A DNA stretch of 64,000 bases from Pseudomonadota bacterium (GTDB lineage: Bacteria > Pseudomonadota > Alphaproteobacteria > Acetobacterales > Acetobacteraceae), in contig JAJYYH010000037.1 in NCBI GenBank assembly GCA_021801255.1, forward strand, positions 1-64,000. The letters are read 5' to 3'. The notes beneath the pieces are model-generated. The model was given only the letters and a program-made list of their open reading frames with translations, did no database searches and was not told the DNA's origin. Positions 41,203-42,105 of the stretch are shown here, in pieces. How positions within the stretch are numbered: position 1 is the stretch's first letter; every line of letters starts with the position of its first letter. The position numbers and the translations under genes were made by a program.

Positions 41203-41463
41203 CTACTGGATCGAAATCGGCATCATCTCGTGCTCGACAATCGCCGCGATCGCTGTCTCATGGCTGGGGGCCACGGCCAGCGGTTGACCATCCGCCCCGT
41301 GGATGGCAAAGGCCGGGCTCCCCTCGACCAGAACCGGCCTCACATAGGCGATCTGCGAGAGGCCGAGGCGGGCAAATTCAATCGGCGAGAGATGCCGAAT
41401 ATCATGCCGGATCACCGCCACGGCCTCGGCCGTCTCATGGGTGGATCCTGGATCCTTGTTCAT
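41203..41463 (-). CDS. DUF1150 family protein
   Basis: An 86-residue protein: IRHLSPIEFARLGLSQIAYVRPV, then AFAIHGADGQPLAVAPSHETAIAA, features of DUF1150, a small alphaproteobacterial family commonly encoded with small heat shock proteins. No function is established. It lies 87 bases after the hsp20 stop on the same strand, so it is probably cotranscribed and heat induced. A GC-rich terminator follows. Confidence 0.85.
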   Translation of the reverse strand: MNKDPGSTHETAEAVAVIRHDIRHLSPIEFARLGLSQIAYVRPVLVEGSPAFAIHGADGQPLAVAPSHETAIAAIVEHEMMPISIQ

Positions 41464-41550: not shown

Positions 41551-42018
41551 TTACTCCGGCTCCGTTGCCGCAGGCACGTCCCCGGCGGGCTGGCCGATAC
41601 GACCGGAGGGCTGGCCGATACGAATAGTGCGCACCCGGCTTTCCGCTTGCGGGCGGGCGAGGTCGATATGCAACAGGCCGTTATCAAGCCAAGCGGCCCG
41701 TACCTCGATCCCCTCGGCCAGCACAAAGGCGCGCTGGAACTGCCGCGCGGCGATGCCGCGATGCAGGAACACCCGTCCCTCCGTCTCCTCATTCTGGTGG
41801 CCTTGGATCACCAATTGGTTATCTTCGACGGTAATCTGGAGGTCGTTCATGCCGAACCCGGCAACCGCCAGCGTGATACGCAGTTCCTGCGGCCCGGTCT
41901 GCTCGATATTGTATGGCGGATAACCATCGGCGCCGGATTTGCGCGCGCGCTCGAGCAATTGCTCAAGATGATCGAAGCCGAGAAATAGTGGCGAGGTAAA
42001 CATACGCTGCATCATCAT
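41551..42018 (-). CDS. Small heat shock protein Hsp20 (IbpA-like)
   Basis: A 155-residue alpha-crystallin protein. N-terminus FLGFDHLEQLLERA is typical of alphaproteobacterial class A Hsp20. The core domain runs YPPYNIEQTGPQELRITLAVAGF, DLQITVEDNQLVIQG and GRVFLHRGIAARQFQRAFVLA. The C-terminal tail carries two near-identical IGQPxGRIGQPAG segments where the I-x-I motif would sit (VRTIRIG). It holds unfolding proteins for refolding. Upstream are a ROSE-like RNA thermometer and a candidate RpoH promoter. Confidence 0.92.
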   Translation of the reverse strand: MMMQRMFTSPLFLGFDHLEQLLERARKSGADGYPPYNIEQTGPQELRITLAVAGFGMNDLQITVEDNQLVIQGHQNEETEGRVFLHRGIAARQFQRAFVLAEGIEVRAAWLDNGLLHIDLARPQAESRVRTIRIGQPSGRIGQPAGDVPAATEPE

Positions 42019-42069
42019 GCCTCCTCCTTGGAGCGAAGCGGGTACTGGAACCCATTACAGCGTTCCAGC
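42019..42069 (-). promoter_or_regulatory. ROSE-like RNA thermometer in hsp20 leader
   Basis: In the minus-strand RNA, CTGGAAC/GTTCCAG (42062-42068 with 42045-42051) forms a 7-bp hairpin. The next hairpin (42039 to 42019) pairs GCUUC with GAGGC and CGCU-side bases with the GGAGG ribosome site, leaving one bulged G inside UCGCU. UYGCU with a bulged G opposite the Shine-Dalgarno is the hallmark of ROSE elements, which melt on heating. It ends directly at the ATG. Confidence 0.72.
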
Positions 42070-42076
42070 AGACCTT

Positions 42077-42105
42077 ATTTTGGTCACGGCGGCCGCGGTT
42101 ACAAG
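42077..42105 (-). promoter_or_regulatory. Putative RpoH (heat shock) promoter
   Basis: On the minus strand CTTG (42105-42102), an 18-base spacer and CCAAAAT (42083-42077) resemble alphaproteobacterial sigma32 promoters. Transcription would begin near 42070, just where the ROSE-like hairpins start. It overlaps the divergent def promoter region. Confidence 0.45.

Follow-up and report, generated by a model that had tools for sequence, protein, structure and literature searches.

What controls the ibpA-like hsp20 gene in this 64-kb stretch of DNA from an alphaproteobacterium of the Acetobacteraceae (hereafter the window), and does the short leader ahead of it respond to temperature? The question is raised by 87 bases on the minus strand (42105-42019), which run from CTTG-N18-CCAAAAT through a perfect 7-bp hairpin and a second hairpin to an ATG, and which the initial annotation read as a heat-shock promoter followed by a ROSE-type RNA thermometer. 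Combining RNA family searches, comparative covariance models and promoter analysis across the Acetobacteraceae, we conclude, with a probability of about 0.88, that the hsp20 leader is a two-layer heat-shock control unit consisting of an RpoH promoter and a ROSE-type RNA thermometer.

An ibpA-like hsp20 gene preceded by two predicted hairpins

The locus comprises the following features, in the order of transcription:

42077-42105, minus strand: RpoH (sigma-32)-like promoter CTTG-N18-CCAAAAT, from sequence and conservation
42069-42076, minus strand: predicted transcription start region, placed just past the -10
42043-42070, minus strand: hairpin I, a stable covarying stem with an invariant bulged-G tip (CGCU...GGG in the window), from fold and covariation
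42019-42039, minus strand: hairpin II, the predicted ROSE thermosensor, GCUUC-G-CUC CAAG GAG-GAGGC, from fold, conservation and a leave-genus-out match
42032-42036, minus strand: anti-Shine-Dalgarno ROSE motif UCGCU with bulged G42034, from invariant columns and the U(U/C)GCU consensus
42020-42027, minus strand: Shine-Dalgarno (SD) sequence GGAGGAGG, readable in two overlapping registers and masked by hairpin II, from sequence and fold
41551-42018, minus strand: hsp20, an ibpA-like small heat-shock gene (PF00011, E = 8e-19)
41203-41463, minus strand: DUF1150 gene downstream of hsp20 (PF06620, E = 4.5e-13)

The element lies in the 5' UTR of a heat-shock gene whose best NCBIfam model is IbpA (115.6 bits, below that model's equivalog cut-off). 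The gene opens with three in-frame ATGs (42010-42018); many relatives begin M-x-x-R-MFTSP, a pattern that lines up with the middle ATG, so that the true start codon is probably the one at 42015, a position that would also give a more usual SD spacing. Downstream, the DUF1150 gene probably belongs to one operon with hsp20, while the peptide deformylase gene (def) is divergent from it.

The two hairpins occupy positions 42019-42070. The 5' hairpin, hairpin I, has a core of seven uninterrupted pairs, CUGGAAC/GUUCCAG (42068-42062 with 42051-42045); the stem can be lengthened to nine pairs, plus a further two past the bulged G42061. Hairpin II follows near the start codon, reading GCUUCGCUC CAAG GAGGAGGC with the ATG immediately after; in it, UCGCU (42036-42032) is imperfectly paired to AGGA (42025-42022) within GGAGGAGG, leaving G42034 bulged. 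Sequence and RNAfold bear out the initial description of a single bulged G in UCGCU opposite GGAGG, closing the ribosome site, with a 7-bp hairpin ahead of it. RNAfold of 42075-42010 returned exactly hairpins I and II at -27.8 kcal/mol (z = -3.05), a folding energy matched by 2 of 200 dinucleotide shuffles. When about 40 nt of extra coding sequence are included, the minimum free energy structure is an alternative fold making up 4% of the ensemble, in which codons 4-5 pair with the loop side of hairpin I; both hairpins are still present in the centroid.

At 37 °C the predicted stability of hairpin II is -9.2 kcal/mol, compared with a family range of -4.5 to -10.4, -4.6 for E. coli ibpA and -14.7 for the classic ROSE hairpin that this genome carries elsewhere. 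An RNAfold temperature series opened none of hairpin II, the E. coli ibpA hairpin and the classic ROSE hairpin below 60 °C; because a known thermometer gives the same answer, such melting curves are not diagnostic.

A ROSE-like element outside the Rfam models

The initial annotation had proposed a search with the ROSE covariance models. With Rfam 15, the whole window held no match at the gathering score of any family, and the ROSE models found nothing in the 401-base stretch around the element even at E < 10; across the gathering and relaxed searches the window gave only snoRNA matches, which we judged meaningless. The same search recovered its positive controls, namely E. coli ibpA (RF01832, 100.4 bits) and the second hsp20 locus of this genome (RF00435, 61.9 bits). 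Acetobacteraceae relatives of the element align to RF02523 (ROSE_3) over its full length at only 20-31 bits (gathering 43), and that cut-off was reached in 0 of 289 alphaproteobacterial genomes, which makes the missing Rfam match uninformative and indicates that the Rfam models are too narrow for the Acetobacteraceae branch. Most RF02523 matches elsewhere in the class did not precede an hsp20 gene, and we left these matches out. Since the window element reaches the gathering score of none of RF00435, RF01832 and RF02523, we file it as ROSE-like, outside all three families.

Its anti-SD motif agrees with the ROSE consensus U(U/C)GCU (PMC11342760). A ROSE-G thermometer, which is defined by CUGCU whose bulged G faces a second bulged G on the SD strand (PMC12857270), was rejected, as the window motif is UCGCU with a single bulge. 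The Pseudomonas ibpA thermometer (PMC3669281) shares with the window a leader of about 60 nt, a stable GC-rich hairpin I, U(U/C)GCU opposite the SD and an ibpA-type gene, whereas the window element is alphaproteobacterial, lies outside that group and has its SD just 1-4 nt from the first AUG. RF01832 (ROSE_2, E. coli ibpA) likewise combines two hairpins, UCGCU with a bulged G, a bulged G in hairpin I and an ibpA-like gene, but its model finds no match in the window. Similarly, the RF02523 consensus has hairpin I GGGAUGCCG...CGGGUCCC and CUCGCU...AGGAG, although the relatives all fall under its gathering score and the window itself is unmatched. The rhizobial-type RF00435 has both a bulged-G hairpin I and a bulged-G SD hairpin; it differs in its greater length, its additional hairpin and its extended SD stem, and does not match 42019-42070. 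The assignment as an Rfam-invisible ROSE-like thermometer, whose layout most resembles that of the short ibpA leaders with two hairpins in Pseudomonas and E. coli, is solid.

The classic RF00435 element of this genome (C35:18945-19031; L144 1501-1587) precedes two other hsp20 genes in tandem and itself has CTTGAAA-N-CCAGCTAT ahead of it, so that the genome carries two different ROSE subtypes. A survey of Gluconobacter oxydans listed one RF00435 element at an hsp20 (PMC5756330), which could be either hsp20 type.

The two-hairpin leader is shared across the Acetobacteraceae

Orthologs of the gene were found in 144 of 150 sampled Acetobacteraceae genomes and in 80 named contigs, the latter from Acetobacter, Gluconacetobacter, Komagataeibacter, Gluconobacter, Acidocella, Rhodopila, Roseomonas, Elioraea and others, and their leaders share the two-hairpin plan. 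A covariance model built from 19 seeds, the window and its genus included (R1), finds the element in 102 of the 150 genomes, almost always once per genome. Coordinate comparison places at least the 50 strongest matches directly upstream of the hsp20 ortholog, and the element is restricted to hsp20. A second model (R2), built without the window and without its genus, returned 58.3 bits (E = 6.7e-11) at the element, the next match in the 64 kb scoring 12.3 bits.

Class-wide, R1 matched only 3 of 289 alphaproteobacterial genomes and is therefore family-specific. Inspection by eye and by pattern of 27 ortholog leaders from other alphaproteobacteria revealed similar hairpins in many: the SD-hairpin pattern occurs in 20 of the 27 and a hairpin I of at least five pairs in 9 (0.7% in shuffles), while several have no hairpin I recognisable by pattern. 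In another alphaproteobacterium (L126 1501-1571), UGCGGGAUGCCGAA...CGGGUCCCGCA reproduces hairpin I of ROSE_3 almost perfectly, with GGAGG-ATG downstream; the search for an hsp20 resembling the query gave nothing at that locus. Within the family, Elioraea, including a thermophile (L087, L107, L108), has the hairpin II arm GGCCCGCUC with predicted mismatches to GAGGAGGC, unlike most relatives, and may possibly have a hairpin II tuned to a different temperature.

Covariation in hairpin I and conservation in hairpin II

We aligned 85 sequences to the covariance model, a procedure that itself favours the structure; in this alignment standard pairs fill 95.3% of pair cells overall and 99.3% in hairpin II. 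Compensatory double changes amount to 153 cells, all within hairpin I. Covariation scores 0.389 in the real alignment; shuffled alignments give 0.191, none of 500 shuffles attaining the observed value, and slid controls do not exceed 0.105. An independent MAFFT alignment of the seeds agrees with this picture, and RNAalifold recovers the two-hairpin structure unaided.

Hairpin II shows no double-sided covariation among the 85 sequences, because its sequence is nearly invariant, part of this constraint coming from the SD itself; support for hairpin II is limited to conservation and one-sided changes (G-C/G-U, U-A/U-G), with the CGCUC and GAGG columns invariant or nearly so. Taken with the promoter described below, the family-wide conservation of motif and two-hairpin layout upholds the initial proposal of a ROSE-type element before hsp20.

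A conserved RpoH-like promoter

RpoH (sigma-32) promoters have a CTTG -35 element, a spacer of 17-18 nt and a C-rich -10 element. The window sequence agrees in each respect, with CTTG at 42105-42102, an 18-nt spacer at 42101-42084 and CCAAAAT at 42083-42077, placed 6 nt ahead of hairpin I. The proposed heat-shock promoter of the initial annotation is present in the sequence as described and is kept by relatives: a CTTG(CAA)-N17-19-CCAANAT-like promoter precedes hairpin I in 78 of the 85, against 0.5% of base-shuffled upstream regions. Among the relatives the spacer is 18 nt in 68 and 17 nt in 9, and the distance from the end of the -10 to hairpin I is 5-9 nt in 74 of the 78. The hsp20 promoter fits the RpoH type, from which we infer both its sigma dependence and the start site.

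In the whole genome, the strict pattern CTTGNAA-N14-16-CCAANAT has 3 sites (control pattern, 0): the hsp20 leader, a Bax1-I/YccA gene and one apparently unrelated site. The second of these, CTTGAAA-N15-CCAAAAT lying 46 nt before the Bax1-I/YccA family gene (L194 1501-1575), marks a candidate RpoH regulon member. The groES gene of the same genome (C60) carries CTTG-N18-CCTAAAT with a CIRCE-like inverted repeat, TGGCACTC...GAGTGCTAAC, just 3' of it, a sequence arrangement that suggests double control by RpoH and HrcA.

Proposed mechanism and alternatives

Upon heat shock, the RpoH (sigma-32) promoter at 42105-42077 would give rise to an mRNA that begins with hairpin I or slightly ahead of it. 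As long as the cell is at growth temperature, hairpin II would keep the SD GGAGG paired to GCUUCGCUC around the bulged G, and with the SD closed little Hsp20 would be made; at heat-shock temperature the weakened helix would open and ribosomes would load. Hairpin I, a stable structure at the 5' end, would assist folding, shield the transcript, or both. We model RpoH dependence, the start site and temperature-dependent opening on the characterised homologous arrangement; in the two-hairpin ROSE elements of Pseudomonas ibpA, hairpin II was shown to melt (PMC3669281). We consider it almost certain that the leader works as a ROSE-type RNA thermometer, with a temperature response predicted from this analogy.

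The hairpins could instead form a constitutive translational attenuator or a 5' stabiliser, with heat control exerted wholly at transcription by RpoH. So strong and conserved an RpoH-like promoter would suffice for heat induction, and the predicted hairpin II is fairly stable. Yet an attenuator would repress better as a perfect helix, whereas the bulged-G ROSE motif is invariant in the 85 sequences, and the same motif responds to temperature both in Pseudomonas ibpA (PMC3669281) and in P. stuartii oppF (PMC11342760). We consider this alternative improbable.

The tip of hairpin I

The tip of hairpin I, Y-G(bulged)-C-Y...GGG, carries 1.0-2.0 bits per column in the 85 sequences, its G, C and GGG being invariant, compared with 0.03-1.2 bits in the stem columns; judged from this column conservation, the bulged-G tip may be under stronger selection than the covarying stem. 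In the three Rfam consensus structures, too, the 5' strand of hairpin I has one bulged G (ROSE, ccGCC/GG; ROSE_2, CCUGUCC/GGAAGG; ROSE_3, AUGCC/CGGGU). The tip has the same local succession of a pyrimidine-G pair, a bulged G and C-G as the core of the thermosensing hairpin, which in the crystal structure of P. stuartii oppF consists of U.G, a bulged G and C-G (PMC11342760). The role of the 5' hairpins in ROSE elements is not fully understood (PMC3669281), and in a limited literature search we found no discussion of the bulge in hairpin I. We tentatively raise the idea, on balance an unlikely one, that ROSE elements are made of two bulged-G hairpins, and that hairpin I is a specific module (a recognition site, a tertiary contact or a second sensor) beyond a stabilising clamp.

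The same features could be taken to mean that the leader is regulated by a protein or ligand, which would bind the YGCY...GGG tip and modulate hairpin II, with temperature playing a partial role. A tip far more conserved than its stem, a bulged G recurring in all three Rfam ROSE models and the incompletely understood role of the 5' hairpin would suit such a leader. There is, however, no known ligand or protein, and in Pseudomonas the isolated hairpin II is enough for thermoregulation (PMC3669281), so that we regard this explanation as even less probable than an attenuator. Chance pairing around the SD beside a small heat-shock gene, to which purine-rich SDs in GC-rich genomes are prone and with which the lack of an Rfam match would agree, is refuted by the leave-genus-out match and the family-wide covariation, and can be set aside, leaving the two-layer control unit as our reading of the locus.

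Implications for the Acetobacteraceae

The switch described here is of a known kind, but its branch escapes the standard RNA library. Across the Acetobacteraceae, the acetic acid bacteria and their relatives, ROSE-type control of ibpA-like hsp20 would accordingly be widespread, though unreported by Rfam annotation. For hairpin I, a part of ROSE elements without a clear function, the 85-sequence alignment provides a sharply conserved signature amenable to mutational testing.
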